Part shown: piece by piece, positions 304 through 5,810 of the stretch
Position numbering within the stretch: the first letter of the stretch is position 1
Layout of the letters: the number at the start of each line of letters is the position of its first letter
Source of the DNA: Candidatus Zixiibacteriota bacterium
Lineage (GTDB): Bacteria; SM23-81
DNA: 5,810 bases
Assembly (NCBI GenBank): GCA_030628225.1
Contig: DAOVRJ010000164.1
Location: forward strand, 1 to 5,810
Reading direction: 5' to 3'
Made by a program: the position numbers and the translations under genes
The notes under the pieces: generated by a model
What the model was told of the DNA's origin: nothing
Database searches by the model: none
The model's input: the letters and a program-made list of their open reading frames with translations, nothing else

Positions 304-2183
304 AAAAACTAAAGGGGTTCTATTTCTGCACCCTGGTTTTAATCCTCCTTTTGTTCTCTCCTTTGCGGATGATAGCCGAGGCAGGGGAATCAAGCTCCCT
401 GGATGTGATTCGCCGGGCCCAGCTCAGGGGAGAGCTGGACGACGAGACAGCGCTGGTGTATCGGGTTTGGGCCGTTCTGGACCCGGAACGGCTCCCGCCT
501 GAATTCTCCGGCCAGCCTCAGAGGCTGGTCAAATCGCTGACCCCGTTGTTCCTGGAGGTTCGCTCCCGCTGGGATGAGCTTCGTCCGCAGGCCAAGGCAG
601 CGCTGGCTCCCTATCTGCTGCGGCCCACCGAGCCCGGTCAGGAGCCCCTCCTCTACGGCCACTCCTATTCCGTTCCGGCGGTCTATCACGACAGCCCGGG
701 CGGCCACTTGCGCATCTGGTACGTCACCTCCACTAACGACAGCCCGGATCTCGTCTATACTTACGGGGACACCATCCCCGACTGGATCCACATCTGCGCC
801 GAGGTGTTCGACCACGTCTGGGAAACGGAGGTGGATTCCCTGGGTTACAGGTCGCCTCCGGCCGACGGCTCCTGGTATGGCCAGGAGGACTACGGAGGCG
901 ATTCCCGCTACGACATCTACGTCGAGGATCTGAACCGCCATCGGGTTTACGGTTACGCCATGAGCGAGTTCAACACGCCGGGTGTAGCTCCCCGCGCCTA
1001 TACCAGCTACATCGTGGTGGACAACGATTACTCCAGCACCCTGTATCCGACTTCCGGGGAGGACGGCTTGATGGTCACCGCCGCCCACGAGTTCTTCCAC
1101 GCCATCCAGTTCGCCTACGACACCTTGGAGGAGAGATTCTTCATGGAGATCTCCTCCACCTGGATGGAGGATGTGGTCTATGATGCGATCAACGACTATT
1201 ATAACTATCTCTCCCATTCCGGGCATTCCTCCATTTTCAGCCGTCCGGAGCTCTCCCTGACCACCTTTGATGGATTTTACGAGTACAGTAGCTGTGTGTA
1301 TGGCCATTATCTCTCCAAGAGATTTGATCGCCTTATCATGAGGGAGATCTGGGAGGGTTGCGTCCAGCAGACGGCGTTGGCAGCCATGGATGAGGCCTTG
1401 AACGCCCGGGGCAGCGATCTGGCCTCGGCCCACAACGAGTTTGCCGTCTGGAACTATTTCACCGGTTCCCGGGCCGACACGGCCCTCTACTATCCAGAGG
1501 GGGACCGATATCCTCAGGTCAAGATCTATTCCGACAACCTGCATTCCAGCTATCCCGTGGAGATGGATTCCGTGTCTCATCCTCCCCAGCCTCTGGGAGC
1601 CAGCTATGTTTGTTTCTTGACCCAGGATACCCCGGGTGGTTTCCGGGTCGAGTTTAATGGCCGGCCAAAGGTTACCTGGAATGCCGCCCTGCTGGGCGTT
1701 GGACCGCCCCATGAGGTGGTGCAGATTCCCCTGGATGGTTTCGGGCACGGCCAGGGGCAGATGTTCAACTGGAGCGGTTATCAGCAGGTGGCCCTTGTGG
1801 TCACGCCGTTCGCTCTCTCGGGTTCCAGCGTGCAGTATGCTTACCAGGCGATGCCTGACTCCAGCCTGATCGGGCCGGACCAGTTCGTCACCGCCTTGGG
1901 CCAGAACTATCCCAGCCCCGTGGCCGGGGACAGGACGGTGATTCCCTTTTCCATCGCCCGGGGGGGAGAGGTTTCCATGCGTATCTTCACCCTGGAGGGC
2001 CAGTTGGTGCGCCGGTTCGACTGGGGTTACCTGGACCCCGGACAGTACTATGGGCCTGATCGGGGGACGGGAGATTGGGACCTGACCAATACCGCTGATG
2101 AGCTGGTGGCCGCCGGGGTGTACCTCTATCAACTGCGCCTGGGAGATCACGTGGAGACCAGGAAGATGGTGGTGGTGAGATAG
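300..2183 (+). CDS. Secreted HExxH metalloprotease with C-terminal FlgD-Ig/sorting-like domain (MXAN_6640-like)
   Basis: 627 residues from the CTG start. Residues 2-28 are a Sec signal peptide: KKLK n-region, core LVLILLLF, probable cleavage after AEA before G29. The middle carries a zinc metallopeptidase motif, HEFFH at residues 263-267, followed by WMEDVVYD (288-295), whose E290 (or E283) could be the third zinc ligand as in gluzincin-type enzymes. The surrounding YDIYVEDLN and YIVVDNDY recall the MXAN_6640-type putative metalloproteases; this is recall, not a search. From about residue 535 (QNYPSP) to the end the protein has the FlgD-like Ig/'Por secretion' tail pattern: VSMRIFTLEGQLV, GVYLYQLR, terminal KMVVVR. 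That tail suggests export followed by surface attachment or type IX-like sorting. The protein looks complete. The stop TAG at 2181-2183 coincides with the edge of the downstream inverted-repeat cassette. The peptidase fold is well supported; its substrate is unknown. Confidence 0.85.
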   Translation: MKKLKGFYFCTLVLILLLFSPLRMIAEAGESSSLDVIRRAQLRGELDDETALVYRVWAVLDPERLPPEFSGQPQRLVKSLTPLFLEVRSRWDELRPQAKAALAPYLLRPTEPGQEPLLYGHSYSVPAVYHDSPGGHLRIWYVTSTNDSPDLVYTYGDTIPDWIHICAEVFDHVWETEVDSLGYRSPPADGSWYGQEDYGGDSRYDIYVEDLNRHRVYGYAMSEFNTPGVAPRAYTSYIVVDNDYSSTLYPTSGEDGLMVTAAHEFFHAIQFAYDTLEERFFMEISSTWMEDVVYDAINDYYNYLSHSGHSSIFSRPELSLTTFDGFYEYSSCVYGHYLSKRFDRLIMREIWEGCVQQTALAAMDEALNARGSDLASAHNEFAVWNYFTGSRADTALYYPEGDRYPQVKIYSDNLHSSYPVEMDSVSHPPQPLGASYVCFLTQDTPGGFRVEFNGRPKVTWNAALLGVGPPHEVVQIPLDGFGHGQGQMFNWSGYQQVALVVTPFALSGSSVQYAYQAMPDSSLIGPDQFVTALGQNYPSPVAGDRTVIPFSIARGGEVSMRIFTLEGQLVRRFDWGYLDPGQYYGPDRGTGDWDLTNTADELVAAGVYLYQLRLGDHVETRKMVVVR

Positions 2184-2204
2184 TATCATATGACCCTATG
2201 AGGG
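2183..2204 (+). repeat. Left terminal inverted repeat (IRL)
   Basis: Starts GTATCATATGACCC and continues TATGAGGG. It matches the reverse complement of 3905-3926 at 19 of 22 positions: 7 matches, mismatch, 6 matches, mismatch, 5 matches, mismatch, 1 match. It overlaps the last base of the metalloprotease stop codon and the TAG stop (2196-2198, minus strand) of the second cassette gene. It also contains most of a small hairpin, ACCCT-ATG-AGGGT (2193-2205), poorly conserved in the right repeat. Confidence 0.75.
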
Positions 2205-3053
2205 TATGGTTTGTGCATTAGCCTGTTGTTGGATTTGAGAGATAGTCATTTGTTTGCTCTTTGGCAACTTGTTTTTTTCAGGTATCAGGTCCAGATACTG
2301 TTGGACGACTCGTTTGCTGAGTTTGGTGATATGGACGATTTGGTCAAGTTCAGTGATGCGGTGTTGGTAGACGGTTCGGACTGCCTCGAAGTCGCGGATG
2401 TATCGGTCCACGGATTCTTTGGCGTGGTGGGTTTTGCTGGCGATGGTGGGGGTAAGATAGCCCTGCAGGTACAGGGCGATGATCTCTCTTTTATGGGTGA
2501 TGGCACCGGAGAGGTCGTGGATGTTGCCTCTGGTGGGCAGGATGCGGCCGGTGGTTCTTTGATATTCGTTGACATAATCGCTGACCACCGCGTCGCAGAC
2601 ACCCAGCAGGACTGCCAGGTCCAGTTGTGAGAGCAGGGCGCCCTGGTCATAGGTTTCATCACACCAGCGGACCATGCGTCTGATGCGCAGCCGGCGAGAG
2701 GAGAAGCCCTCTTTGAGCGATTCGATGTCCTCATCGGCTAGGAAGGTCAACAGCACAGGTTTGAGGCGGGTGGTGGCGATGCATTGGCCCCGTTTTGGTC
2801 TGTCCTCGATGTCGACGGCCATCCAGACCAGCTGGCCGTAGTTTATATAGATGCCTTCTTTTTGGGGTTTGGCCAGGATGAAGTAGTGCTGGATGAGGCC
2901 CAGGATGTCATCGACGATGGCCTTGGCGCTGATTTCTCCTTTGTCGTAGCCATAGTGGTTGAGGAAGCGGTAGATCAGCAGTTGTCTGAGGGATTTATCG
3001 TTGATGCGCCGGAACTTCTTCAGGTTGATGTCTGTTTTGGTCATTTTCTGCAC
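2196..3053 (-). CDS. DUF1670-like multi-HTH protein B, paralog of protein A (second gene of the element)
   Basis: 285 residues from the GTG at 3053; the open frame extends upstream to 3185, but that part is the shadow of gene A. It follows gene A's order: helical N-terminus, strand-rich middle, then ETYDQGA (133-139), DLAVLL (145-150), TRG (174-176), D180, ITHK (185-188), LYLQGY (194-199), SKTHHAKESVDRYIRDF (206-222) and a last helical HTH-like part (about 233-256). Residues shared with A include YDQGA, DLAV, TRG, D, HK, LYL.GY and KT.H...SV.RY.R.F. The spacing from YDQGA to HK is nearly identical in both (about 50 residues). The C-terminus (SKQMTISQIQQQANAQTIPS) is Q-rich, and its last codons and stop lie in the left inverted repeat. 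Equal length and common ancestry suggest a heteromeric pair made in similar amounts. Function is unknown; an element-mobility role is inferred. Confidence 0.75.
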   Translation of the reverse strand: MQKMTKTDINLKKFRRINDKSLRQLLIYRFLNHYGYDKGEISAKAIVDDILGLIQHYFILAKPQKEGIYINYGQLVWMAVDIEDRPKRGQCIATTRLKPVLLTFLADEDIESLKEGFSSRRLRIRRMVRWCDETYDQGALLSQLDLAVLLGVCDAVVSDYVNEYQRTTGRILPTRGNIHDLSGAITHKREIIALYLQGYLTPTIASKTHHAKESVDRYIRDFEAVRTVYQHRITELDQIVHITKLSKRVVQQYLDLIPEKNKLPKSKQMTISQIQQQANAQTIPS

Positions 3054-3852
3054 GGTTTTCTCCTTTTTTTCCCGCCGCTTCTGGGTGAAGCAGCAGTTGG
3101 AGTCTTTGGTTGTTCGGTGATTGGAACTGTTTGAAAAGCTCGATGTATTCGGTGATGAGTTTGTCGGAGAAGCCGGTGACCACACGGATCTGCCCTGGTG
3201 AGAAGTTTTGGTTACACAGTCCGATGATCTGAGTGAACTGCCTGAGGTAGCGGAGCACAGAGGTTTCGGAGTGGTTGGTTTTGTGTTCGATTTCGGTGAA
3301 CTGGTAGCCTTTGAGATACAGGTCGATGATCTGGGTTTTGTGGGATAGTCCCGGTCCCATGTCTTGTTTCCAGCCTCGGGTGATGACGAAGTAGCCTTTT
3401 TTGCGTAGGGCTCGGATGTCGCGTTTGACGGTGGCTGGGCTGGTGGTGAGCATCACAGCCAGGTCTTCGTAGCAGAGCACGGCCCCTTGATCGTAGGCTT
3501 CTTTGGACAGCCGCAGGAGACGGTGGCGCCTGAGACCGGCCAGGCCACTGGTGGCCAGCACCTGAAGGTCCGAGCCCAAGTCGTTGAGGGTGAGGGTGAC
3601 GGTGATCTTTCGAGCCAGGGCGATGTGTTTGTTGGGTGGTTCATCGGCGGCGACGGCTTCGTAGGCGATCTGTCCGGATCTAAGCTTGATGTTCAGGTGT
3701 TCGTTGAAGTAGGCTGAGATCTGTCTGAAATAGGCCTCAGCGATTATCGGGGTGAGATTGAAGTCCTGGGCGATCCTTTGAATGATGGCGCTTTTGACAT
3801 TTTTCGACTGCAATCTCTTGATTCCATAGGCGTCTCTTTCTGGCACTTTCAT
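2995..3852 (-). CDS. DUF1670-like multi-HTH protein A (first gene of the element)
   Basis: 285 residues from the ATG at 3852 (one more if the adjacent ATG at 3855 is used). I recognise it from memory as DUF1670-like; its biochemical activity is unknown to me. A helical N-terminal region (about 1-60) is followed by a strand-rich piece (75-100), then the signature EAYDQGA (118-124), a winged-HTH-like segment with EDLAVML and TVKRDIRAL (129-150), TRG (158-160), DMGPGLSHK (164-172), a second HTH-like segment (173-206) and a third (about 217-242). The last 25-30 residues are charged and low in complexity. No DDE/RNase H, HUH, or serine/tyrosine recombinase motif is evident, so it looks like a DNA-binding protein. 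It is a paralog of the next gene, which starts inside it (59-bp overlap). Placement between inverted repeats suggests a transposase subunit or an element regulator; that role is inference. Confidence 0.75.
   Translation of the reverse strand: MKVPERDAYGIKRLQSKNVKSAIIQRIAQDFNLTPIIAEAYFRQISAYFNEHLNIKLRSGQIAYEAVAADEPPNKHIALARKITVTLTLNDLGSDLQVLATSGLAGLRRHRLLRLSKEAYDQGAVLCYEDLAVMLTTSPATVKRDIRALRKKGYFVITRGWKQDMGPGLSHKTQIIDLYLKGYQFTEIEHKTNHSETSVLRYLRQFTQIIGLCNQNFSPGQIRVVTGFSDKLITEYIELFKQFQSPNNQRLQLLLHPEAAGKKGENRAENDQNRHQPEEVPAHQR
3060..3065 (-). promoter_or_regulatory. Shine-Dalgarno deciding a GTG start for the second cassette gene
   Basis: AAGGAG (minus strand, 3065-3060) lies 6 nt before GTG at 3053-3051. 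The in-frame ATG at 3044 is 15 nt away, too far for this site. The site sits at the end of an A7 run (3070-3064) within the 3' end of the first gene, so translation of the pair is probably coupled. Confidence 0.7.
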
Positions 3853-3857
3853 CATGA

Positions 3858-3862
3858 CCTCC
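3858..3862 (-). promoter_or_regulatory. Shine-Dalgarno of the first cassette gene
   Basis: GGAGG on the minus strand precedes two consecutive ATG codons. The first (3855-3853) is only 2 nt away, the second (3852-3850) is 5 nt away, so the second ATG is the likelier start. Confidence 0.7.
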
Positions 3863-3890
3863 GTGAGAAAAGATTCACTTTCTGACTCCT

Positions 3891-3919
3891 AATATACAAC
3901 ACATCTCTCATGGGGTCAA
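3891..3919 (-). promoter_or_regulatory. Sigma70-type promoter of the cassette genes
   Basis: On the minus strand, -35 TTGACC (3919-3914) and -10 TATATT (3896-3891) are separated by exactly 17 nt. Transcription should start near 3884, leaving a leader of about 30 nt before the first start codon. The -35 lies within the right inverted repeat. Confidence 0.7.
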
Positions 3920-3926
3920 ATGATAC
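3905..3926 (-). repeat. Right terminal inverted repeat (IRR) carrying a -35 box
   Basis: Read on the minus strand it starts GTATCATTTGACCCC and continues ATGAGAG, pairing with 2183-2204 at 19/22 positions. TTGACC at 3919-3914 inside it serves as the -35 element of the cassette promoter, so protein binding to this end could also repress transcription. Confidence 0.75.
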
Positions 3927-4018
3927 GAACTTACGGTAGGCTGGAGTCAGCGAACAGCGTTTTGAGTCCTTTTGAAAGGCGATTATGGCTTTAGCACGCC
4001 CAGATTTTAGAAAAAACG
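3927..4018. other. Intergenic stretch between the element and the operon terminator
   Basis: No gene is supported here. It probably contains the sequence that followed the metalloprotease stop codon before insertion. I see only short direct repeats (GAGTC at about 3945 and 3964, CAGCGAA/CAGCGTT) and no convincing plus-strand terminator. The shift from G+C-richer to A+T-richer sequence falls around its right end. Confidence 0.5.
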
Positions 4019-4149: not shown

Positions 4150-4929
4150 TTAGCTATCCTTTTTTGTAATACTATTCTGCTTCTTGGTTTGGCCAGTATG
4201 GAAGTCCTCTTGTACAATGTCAAAAGCGGGAGGTTGAACTTCCCTATTTGGTTCTGTTACGACATCAAAATCTGGAGGTTTAACATTTTCATCTGGTTTC
4301 GGATCTGGAATACCTTGTGCGTCGTTGGTTTGTTGAGACAAATCTTTGGATTCAGCCATTGTCTCCGTCCTCCTTTCTCGAAAATTAGTTATCTTCGCTT
4401 CTGACCATTTATTGATGGTAACAAGAATTGATAGAGCAAGAATTAGAATGAATACAATGCGAATGAAAAAGCGGCTGCGTTTGAGGCTCTGAACCTTATG
4501 ATCTATCTGTTTGCGGTTTATATTTAAGTTGTCTTTCATCCCCTCTGACAACTTATAATAAATAGTTATCAGCTCATTATTGTCGAAGAATTCGAGATTT
4601 ATCGGTATCTTAATAAGATCAAGAAGCTGTACTGCGTTGAAAAGGATATTCCATGCAATAGTGAGGCAGAACAAAAGTAAACCGCTGACAATAATTATCA
4701 GCCATTCGAGAAAAGCTGTTGGTGGCAAAATTGAATCAAAAATACGATTTCCAAAGAATGCAAATGCACCGAATAGAAAGGTAAGCGCTGTAAGATATTT
4801 AAAGGCTTTGTCTTCAAGCTTTGTTGAGCGCTTTATCTCTTCCGAAAAAACATCTTTGGAGAGATAATAAAGCTCCTTGTATTTTTCAAAGTTCCTTTGT
4901 TTGGTTTTGTCTTCAGGTGAATTGTTCAT
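4150..4929 (-). CDS. Three-helix membrane protein with duplicated cytosolic tail motif
   Basis: 259 residues; I do not recognise it as a named family. A charged N-terminus ends in KRSTKLEDKAFKYL and leads into hydrophobic helices at about 43-62, 74-97 and 153-172. A soluble linker (about 100-150) and a hydrophilic C-terminal tail (about 173-259) complete it. The 'LxDKAxxxL' stretch entering the first helix weakly resembles SLATT or Pycsar-type membrane effectors; this is a resemblance only. The tail has two copies of a 13-residue motif (ENVKPPDFDVVTE and REVQPPAFDIVQE) and an internal ribosome-binding site. It lies 28 nt after the M78 peptidase gene in the same direction, so they are probably co-transcribed; its own Shine-Dalgarno is weak, suggesting dependence on upstream translation. 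A membrane location is well supported. A role as peptidase substrate or partner is inference. Confidence 0.75.
   Translation of the reverse strand: MNNSPEDKTKQRNFEKYKELYYLSKDVFSEEIKRSTKLEDKAFKYLTALTFLFGAFAFFGNRIFDSILPPTAFLEWLIIIVSGLLLFCLTIAWNILFNAVQLLDLIKIPINLEFFDNNELITIYYKLSEGMKDNLNINRKQIDHKVQSLKRSRFFIRIVFILILALSILVTINKWSEAKITNFRERRTETMAESKDLSQQTNDAQGIPDPKPDENVKPPDFDVVTEPNREVQPPAFDIVQEDFHTGQTKKQNSITKKDS
4207..4290 (-). repeat. Duplicated 13-residue motif in the membrane-protein tail
   Basis: Residues 214-226 (ENVKPPDFDVVTE) and 229-241 (REVQPPAFDIVQE) repeat with a 15-residue period and share PP.FD.V..E. The DNA copies also resemble each other (AACCTCC…TTTTGA…), consistent with a tandem duplication followed by drift. 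A short proline-anchored acidic repeat of this kind could be a docking motif. Confidence 0.65.
4359..4376 (-). promoter_or_regulatory. Internal Shine-Dalgarno and ATG inside the membrane-protein gene
   Basis: On the minus strand AAAGGAGG (4376-4369) precedes an in-frame ATG (4359-4357) by 9 nt. It is much stronger than the site before the gene's own start. Initiation here would give a 69-residue soluble product (MAESKDLSQQ… to the common stop at 4150) made of the tail only. Confidence 0.6.
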
Positions 4930-4957: not shown

Positions 4958-5608
4958 TTAAGTTAACAAAATCTTCTCGGGAACATCGTCATTTCTAATA
5001 CGAATTTCAACCACCTGTGGATTCACATCGAAACTCTTGGCAATTTCACCAGCCATAAATGACCAAGCGTCTTTTACTGGTATCGTTAAGTCTTTAAATT
5101 TTTCTTTGAGTTCCGCTGAGAACTTGGCGACGGCCTTGCGACATTCTCTCTCAAGCTCCGTACGTGGCACAAGAACATAACCCGCAAAATTATTTGCGTG
5201 GGTCTCATACCAACCTATTTCGCTCGTTGGAATAGAATACATCCAGTTAATATACTTTTCCATAGTTCCAATACCAGCCAACTCGTCATTTTCAAGATCA
5301 GCCAATTCGTAAAGATCGGCATGTAAAACATAATGGCTGATTTCGTGAGCAAGTGTGAATCTGCACTTTTTGTCAAGATGATCCCATTGATATTTATCGA
5401 TCCATATTTCTGTACGATTACGACTTAAAAATCCGTTCACACCGTGGAAATACAATCCAGGCATGGGAACAATGTTAAGCCCCATGCCTACGTCTATTAT
5501 GTCTTCAATGGGGATAGGCAAACTTCGGGAAGGATGATATTGAGAGAGAAATTCATCTGCTATGGATTCTATCTTTTCGGGCGGGAGAAAAGGTGCTTTC
5601 CAATTCAA
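4958..5608 (-). CDS. ImmA/IrrE-type (M78) metallopeptidase
   Basis: 216 residues from a TTG start. The zinc motif HEISH is at residues 88-92 in the context FTLAHEISHYVLH, and the family's second motif, ETHANNFAGYVLVP (135-148, pattern E..A..FA...L.P), supplies the probable third zinc ligand E135. Residues about 31-50 (IPIEDIIDVGMGLNIVPMPG) match the N-terminal pattern of these peptidases, and the C-terminal MAGEIAKSFDVNPQVVEIRI resembles the short helix-turn-helix common there. Relatives cleave repressors or antitoxin-like partners in the cytoplasm (ImmA in ICEBs1, IrrE/PprI with DdrO). The TTG is the only usable start: an in-frame TGA lies three codons upstream, and the preceding gene stops 1 nt before it. 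No Xre-type repressor, the usual partner, is visible in the window; the adjacent membrane protein may be the functional partner instead. Confidence 0.88.
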   Translation of the reverse strand: MNWKAPFLPPEKIESIADEFLSQYHPSRSLPIPIEDIIDVGMGLNIVPMPGLYFHGVNGFLSRNRTEIWIDKYQWDHLDKKCRFTLAHEISHYVLHADLYELADLENDELAGIGTMEKYINWMYSIPTSEIGWYETHANNFAGYVLVPRTELERECRKAVAKFSAELKEKFKDLTIPVKDAWSFMAGEIAKSFDVNPQVVEIRIRNDDVPEKILLT

Positions 5609-5609
5609 T

Positions 5610-5810
5610 TCAACTCAAATCCCTTCTAATTGCTTCAATGAGTTTTCTCAAACCATCTTTGTCTGTTTCCGTTTCGCGAAGCGTTCTAAAAATAATGGGC
5701 AAAGAGAGAAGAAGTCTGTCATCGCTTATTACATCGGTTGGTATTGTTCCGGAACAAATTGCAGCAAGATCAAAAAATGTCAACCAATCATCAGTACCCT
5801 TCTTGATACC
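5610..5810 (-). CDS. Unknown protein, C-terminal 66 residues (5' end outside window)
   Basis: An open minus-strand frame enters from the right edge and ends at TGA (5612-5610). The visible part has a hydrophobic, aromatic stretch (DDWLTFFDLAAICSG), then DDRLLLSLPIIFRTLRE, and a charged helical end (GLRKLIEAIRRDLS). I do not recognise a family. It is separated from the peptidase TTG by a single base (TGA-A-TTG), and a Shine-Dalgarno-like AGAAGGG (5627-5621) for that gene lies within its last codons, 12 nt before the TTG. This argues for a real gene translationally coupled to the peptidase. Its base composition matches the rest of the operon. Confidence 0.65.
   Translation of the reverse strand, partial: GIKKGTDDWLTFFDLAAICSGTIPTDVISDDRLLLSLPIIFRTLRETETDKDGLRKLIEAIRRDLS

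Follow-up and report, generated by a model that had tools for sequence, protein, structure and literature searches.

A DUF1670 gene pair between terminal inverted repeats: a candidate small mobile element at the last codon of T9SS-tail genes

Background

Among the closest described counterparts of the element presented here are insertion sequences that have terminal inverted repeats and encode a DDE transposase; these share with it the size, the repeats, genes that fill the unit and, in one copy of the element, a short target duplication. In contrast to them, the element has no recognised DDE, HUH, serine or tyrosine recombinase and encodes two paralogues instead of one transposase. Tn7 employs several unrelated proteins at attTn7, lands downstream of glmS and generates a 5-bp duplication. 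Both harmlessly target a protein-coding gene at its conserved 3' end, and the 5-bp duplication is a further resemblance, but the border of the present element lies inside the last codon, and its target is a large gene family. The ISA1214 group (ISNCY in ISfinder) comprises elements of small size that have inverted repeats and two ORFs; at ~1.2 kb, judging by the name, ISA1214 would be too short for two DUF1670 proteins of ~280 aa. The element is considered here a kind of insertion sequence, its newness being judged without a comparison to ISfinder.

Both proteins of the element are clear members of DUF1670 (PF07900), a family without a stated function. In the open-licence literature searched, no paper mentions DUF1670 or PF07900, and none combines element targeting with type IX secretion (T9SS). 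The reading favoured here, to which we assign a probability of about 0.62, is that the unit constitutes a small mobile element with insertion-sequence architecture, moved by its DUF1670 pair and homing to the last codon of T9SS-tail genes. If true, an unannotated bacterial and archaeal family would consist of transposition proteins that lack any known catalytic fold. The element would then also be a case of mobile DNA landing safely in a protein-sorting tail that exists in many copies, and rebuilding the gene end; annotators could find many missed elements.

Gene pair and unit boundaries

The window (the whole analysed stretch of 5,810 nucleotides from a Candidatus Zixiibacteriota bacterium, contig DAOVRJ010000164.1) contains two terminal repeats that match at 19/22 positions: the left one (2183..2204, + strand, GTATCATATGACCCTATGAGGG) on the 3' side of the gene pair, and the right one (3905..3926, - strand, reverse complement GTATCATTTGACCCCATGAGAG) on the promoter side. 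It is the only inverted pair of at least 19/22 in the window (in two overlapping registers), and none of 60 dinucleotide shuffles of the window yielded any such pair; a chance origin of the repeats is therefore rejected. Alignment of the window ends with 14 other ends from relatives moves the probable full ends slightly outward from 2183-3926, placing the element at 2180..3930 (- strand, 1751 bp) with the tips ATAG (left) and CGAAC (right). For comparison, the full copies in genomes G061 and G002 measure 1731 and 1855 bp.

Gene 1 (2995..3855, - strand, 286 aa) and its paralogue gene 2 (2196..3044 from its ATG, - strand, 282 aa) overlap by 50 bp and match PF07900 with 198.5 bits (E 1.2e-58) and, for the longer ORF of gene 2, 205.9 bits (E 6.7e-61), far above the curated cut-off of 25 bits. 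Apart from this pair, there is no coding content between the element ends, and no Rfam match was found in the window. The stop codon of gene 2 (2196-2198) lies inside the left repeat, and gene 1 starts 50-70 bp inward of the right end. The only promoter-like match found (TTGACC-17-TATATT, 3891..3919, - strand), identified by consensus only, has its -35 box within the right repeat; as 1.1 such matches are expected by chance, it is weak alone, and this chance-level match counts against the main reading.

The preliminary description had claimed a DUF1670 gene pair within 19/22 inverted repeats, with no spare DNA, the last stop codon in one end and the promoter at the other. The first claim held (PF07900 matches, shuffle test), as did that of the stop codon; the lack of spare DNA is only approximate, considering the distance of gene 1 from the right end, and the promoter claim held in position, but the match is no better than chance. 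Its insertion-sequence reading is largely supported by the present analysis, with the suggested new mechanism remaining unproven.

Relatives and probable horizontal spread

Among 98 genomes, a single strong DNA match was found, in G061 (CP070758.1, Gemmatimonadota bacterium), which is placed in a different phylum from the window. The two elements are 76% identical at the DNA level, and the match stops exactly at the right-hand repeat of the window; the G061 copy bears the same repeat pair at its two ends, with other neighbours. The repeats thus occur at the exact unit ends in both genomes, and further ends are present in G002, G041, G397 and G401, which harbour more distant DUF1670 pairs. Protein identity to G061 amounts to 76% for gene 1 (dN 0.161, dS 1.35) and 80% for gene 2 (dN 0.132, dS 1.31); the dN/dS of ~0.1 demonstrates purifying selection on both genes. 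For the DUF1670 proteins of G002, which is in the same phylum as the window, identity to those of the window is just 32-33%. As the copy from another phylum is much closer than that of the same phylum, the element appears to have spread horizontally.

Window-like copies comprise those of the window, G061 and G003, as well as a decayed one in G201. Besides its full copy, G061 contains element ends at two more places (loci L007 and L015), which run into 100-N assembly gaps and are 98-100% identical to the full copy; they could represent two further copies or the two ends of one. The DUF1670 pairs of several assemblies lie at contig ends, and G041 carries 94% identical pieces on two contigs, as would be expected of a repeated sequence. 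The genome of the window yielded no further copy, and this single copy speaks against the main reading. Vertical inheritance, by which homologous pairs would lack the repeats and keep the same neighbours, was not borne out for the pairs: in relatives, homologous pairs retain the repeats at their ends, and the neighbours differ elsewhere.

Searches of plasmid and phage records, as well as an IMG/VR protein search, revealed no relatives, and phylum searches around G061, G201 and G021 (covering 1, 6 and 2 genomes, respectively) yielded no new carriers. Matches to 16-base end patterns in IMG/VR (5 and 16 contigs, uninspected) were taken as chance, with ~28 expected per pattern by a rough estimate. 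A match in G334 (5.9e-9) lies within a frame of 1226 aa and was disregarded because it is probably spurious.

Sequence of the element ends

Sixteen ends from 10 genomes, aligned from outside to inside, have in common a TATA[AG]-like tip and a palindromic CANNTG core (e.g., ATAG-TATCATATGACCC in the window, ATAAG-GTCAATTGACCCC in G002, ATAAG-GGCAAATGCCC in G041, and ATAG-TGCCACATGACC in G397). At the opposite end of the window and G061 copies, GTTCG replaces the tip. By inference, the palindromic core is of the type that a dimeric binding protein would recognise.

The cores allow another interpretation, namely that the unit is not mobile and the repeats are operators by which a two-gene operon regulates itself, the operon having spread through ordinary horizontal transfer. 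Its support comes from the palindromic cores, one of which overlaps the -35 box, and from solo DUF1670 genes that have palindromes on both sides and conserved neighbourhoods. Several observations make it very unlikely: the repeats form the exact limit of similarity between the window and G061; a promoter has no use at the left repeat, which sits at the 3' end of the gene pair, where genes converge; one copy shows a 5-bp duplication; and in several genomes the border is located within the last codon of T9SS genes.

A separate repeat, TTTTGCA[CG]GAAA... (L100, 4418-4638; L101, 4563-4784; L105, 4670-4736; L106, 2903-2970), adjoins the ends of DUF1670 elements in G401 and G391, and it is also present at other places. 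It is possibly another mobile repeat that serves as a landing site.

Insertion site and target duplication

Insertion-site specificity is new relative to the preliminary description. In the window, the target gene (369..2183, + strand) encodes a putative metalloprotease of the MXAN_6640 type (NF045524, 1.9e-74), which ends in a T9SS type A sorting tail (TIGR04183, 27.2 bits). The 5 bp that flank the element on the left, GTGAG (2175..2179, + strand), fall within the last two codons of this gene; AG of the flank and A of the element together form AGA (Arg), followed by the stop TAG made by the element tip. Five flanking gene ends of window-like copies are readable (window, two in G061, G003, and the decayed G201), and all five pass the curated cut-off of 23 bits for the T9SS type A sorting domain (TIGR04183; 49.1, 23.4, 37.6, 28.0 and 27.2 bits, the last being the score of the window gene). 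The element border lies inside the last codon; the tip, A-TAG or A-TAA, completes this codon to Lys or Arg and supplies the stop. In the decayed G201 copy, the reading frame is now shifted. The tails number 64 in G000, 86 in G003, 144 in G002 and at least 150 in G061, and unguided insertion at tail ends would have a chance of ~3 in 10,000 (estimated from 150 sites of ~10 bp in 5 Mb). The preference for this site is shown by these copies.

Native T9SS tails carry the same terminal bases as the element borders: 37/40 of the native G061 tails are Lys-terminal, with ATGAA before the last codon base in 25/40, and those of G000 and G003 are similar. Both right flanks in G061 start with ATGAAGTAAT, which corresponds to a native MK-stop end. 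An uninterrupted paralogous tail at L139 (GTGTTG ATGAAG TAA TAAATAGGATTC) resembles the right flank of the full G061 copy (ATGAAG TAA TACATAGGATTC) and is on this account regarded as a paralogous empty site. A search for empty sites revealed only such paralogous uninterrupted tails and no true empty-site allele, which weighs against the main reading; the empty site of the G002 copy had no match in the genus-mate G003.

ATGAA stands on either side of the full G061 copy, an exact 5-bp duplication, and the flanks of the G002 copy (AAGCG / AGGCG) match at 4/5 positions. No target duplication was found at the window copy, a further point against the main reading, and no clear one in G397 and G401, the edge in the latter being blurred by the bordering repeat. 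Since ATGAA is so common in the tails, it is conceivable that the apparent duplication joins two different tail genes; a single insertion is the simpler explanation.

In G002, a polysaccharide-deacetylase-like gene, rather than a T9SS gene, has the element's 3' end in its last codon. Gene 3' ends could possibly represent a wider target, a suggestion that rests on one case, with the original ...SD-stop reconstructed from the flanks. The last-codon pattern is absent from G397 and G401. Beside the decayed element of G201, a long gene (L061, 2504-4091) contains about a dozen tandem units of ~123 bp, which are 75-80% alike.

DUF1670 proteins and their solo relatives

Pfam and NCBIfam searches assigned both window proteins to PF07900 and gave no match above the cut-off to known transposase families, i.e., DDE, HUH, serine or tyrosine recombinases/transposases; neither protein contains a nuclease or recombinase recognisable by sequence. 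Confidence is low for the AlphaFold models, which were built from alignments of four sequences (mean pLDDT 65 for gene 2 and 60 for gene 1). A fold search with the gene 2 model (PDB and a viral library) returned nothing at E < 0.001 and barely covered the N-terminal 110 residues; residues 114-258 resemble winged and ordinary helix-turn-helix domains, with Z < 6. Missing fold matches for this model are not evidence of absence, and the gene 1 model was too poor for a search. That no catalytic domain was recognised in either protein is an objection to the main reading.

An alignment of 25 members revealed a D-x(1,2)-G-x4-[STC]-H-[KRA] motif between two DNA-binding regions. Its D-x-G-x4-H form is present in nearly all paired DUF1670 proteins that reach it and in 0/4 solo proteins; exceptions are gene 1 at L058, with G for D, and gene 2 of the window and G061, with one extra residue as judged by eye. 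The solo genes (L062, 4064-4915; L103, 2893-3708; L104, 1350-2165; L107, 2899-3327) occur in G030, G392, G390 and G389 next to what we take, from names read from sequence, to be flagellar, sigma-factor and chemotaxis-like genes, in a partly conserved order, and are accompanied by palindromes such as GTATGTGGTGAACACCACATAC on both sides. As their neighbourhoods are partly conserved, the solo genes, which the preliminary description had not seen, look immobile and vertically kept; that they seem ordinary counts against the main reading. Possibly they are domesticated regulators, and the motif might be needed for movement and have been lost on domestication, which is inferred.

These observations bear on a real, though less likely, alternative, namely that the element is mobile in trans: the DUF1670 proteins would only bind the ends, as a repressor or target selector, and an unrelated recombinase would perform the chemistry. 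This possibility is favoured by the DNA-binding-like character of both proteins (e.g., the helix-turn-helix region at 114-258 in gene 2) without a recognised nuclease, and by the regulator-like solo relatives with palindromic sites on both sides. Against it, the pair has remained associated with its bounding ends in several phyla, and no other gene is encoded between the ends.

Proposed mechanism

In the main reading, with the DUF1670 pair as the mover, mobility is well supported; catalysis by DUF1670 is inferred, with no recognised catalytic domain. The two paralogous proteins would attach to the terminal repeats at their palindromic cores, where they probably repress their own promoter, a role that is likewise inferred. 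They would then draw the ends together, and staggered cuts, also an inferred chemistry, would insert the element and leave the 5-bp duplication. The window-like lineage would target the last codon of T9SS-tail genes, with 64 to at least 150 sites per host genome. Insertion would do little harm because the tip ATAG rebuilds the last Lys/Arg codon and the stop.

A bolder reading, which we consider tentative and on balance doubtful, combines three proposals: that DUF1670 is a new recombinase class acting as a paralogue pair; that the centre of its catalysis is the D-x-G-x4-H-K segment, which has a helix-turn-helix region on each side; and that its members range from T9SS-tail-homing elements to domesticated flagellar-locus regulators without the motif.

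Flanks of the window copy

The right flanking 5 bp of the window copy, TTACG (3931..3935, + strand), are not a copy of the left 5 bp; together with GTAG they read Leu-Arg-stop, a T9SS-tail-like end. For this copy only, the two flanks might stem from separate T9SS genes, brought together when two copies recombined or when the assembly was joined across a repeat, an explanation that we consider possible but less likely than not. In its favour, GTGAG and TTACG are not duplicates, yet read Val-Arg-stop and Leu-Arg-stop in the same register; the G+C content drops from 0.52-0.57 in the element to 0.35-0.41 beyond it; and the source assembly is fragmented (306 contigs). Against it, the genome contains one full copy only (though a collapsed repeat would look alike), and the right flank could simply have drifted. 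Recombination between two copies, drift of an unselected right flank and an assembly join each remain possible.

The low-G+C block beside the window element (4958-5608, 4150-4929 and 5610-5810, all - strand) includes an IrrE/M78-type peptidase gene (PADLOC capP match, 2.5e-13), with a membrane-protein-like gene downstream of it and a partial gene upstream. It may be part of a defence-linked regulatory locus. The left flanks of the window and L007 copies are T9SS genes, and their right flanks (4150-4929 in the window and 1610-2140 in L007 of G061) consist of AT-rich DNA with a small membrane-protein-like gene; copies of the element possibly border accessory islands.
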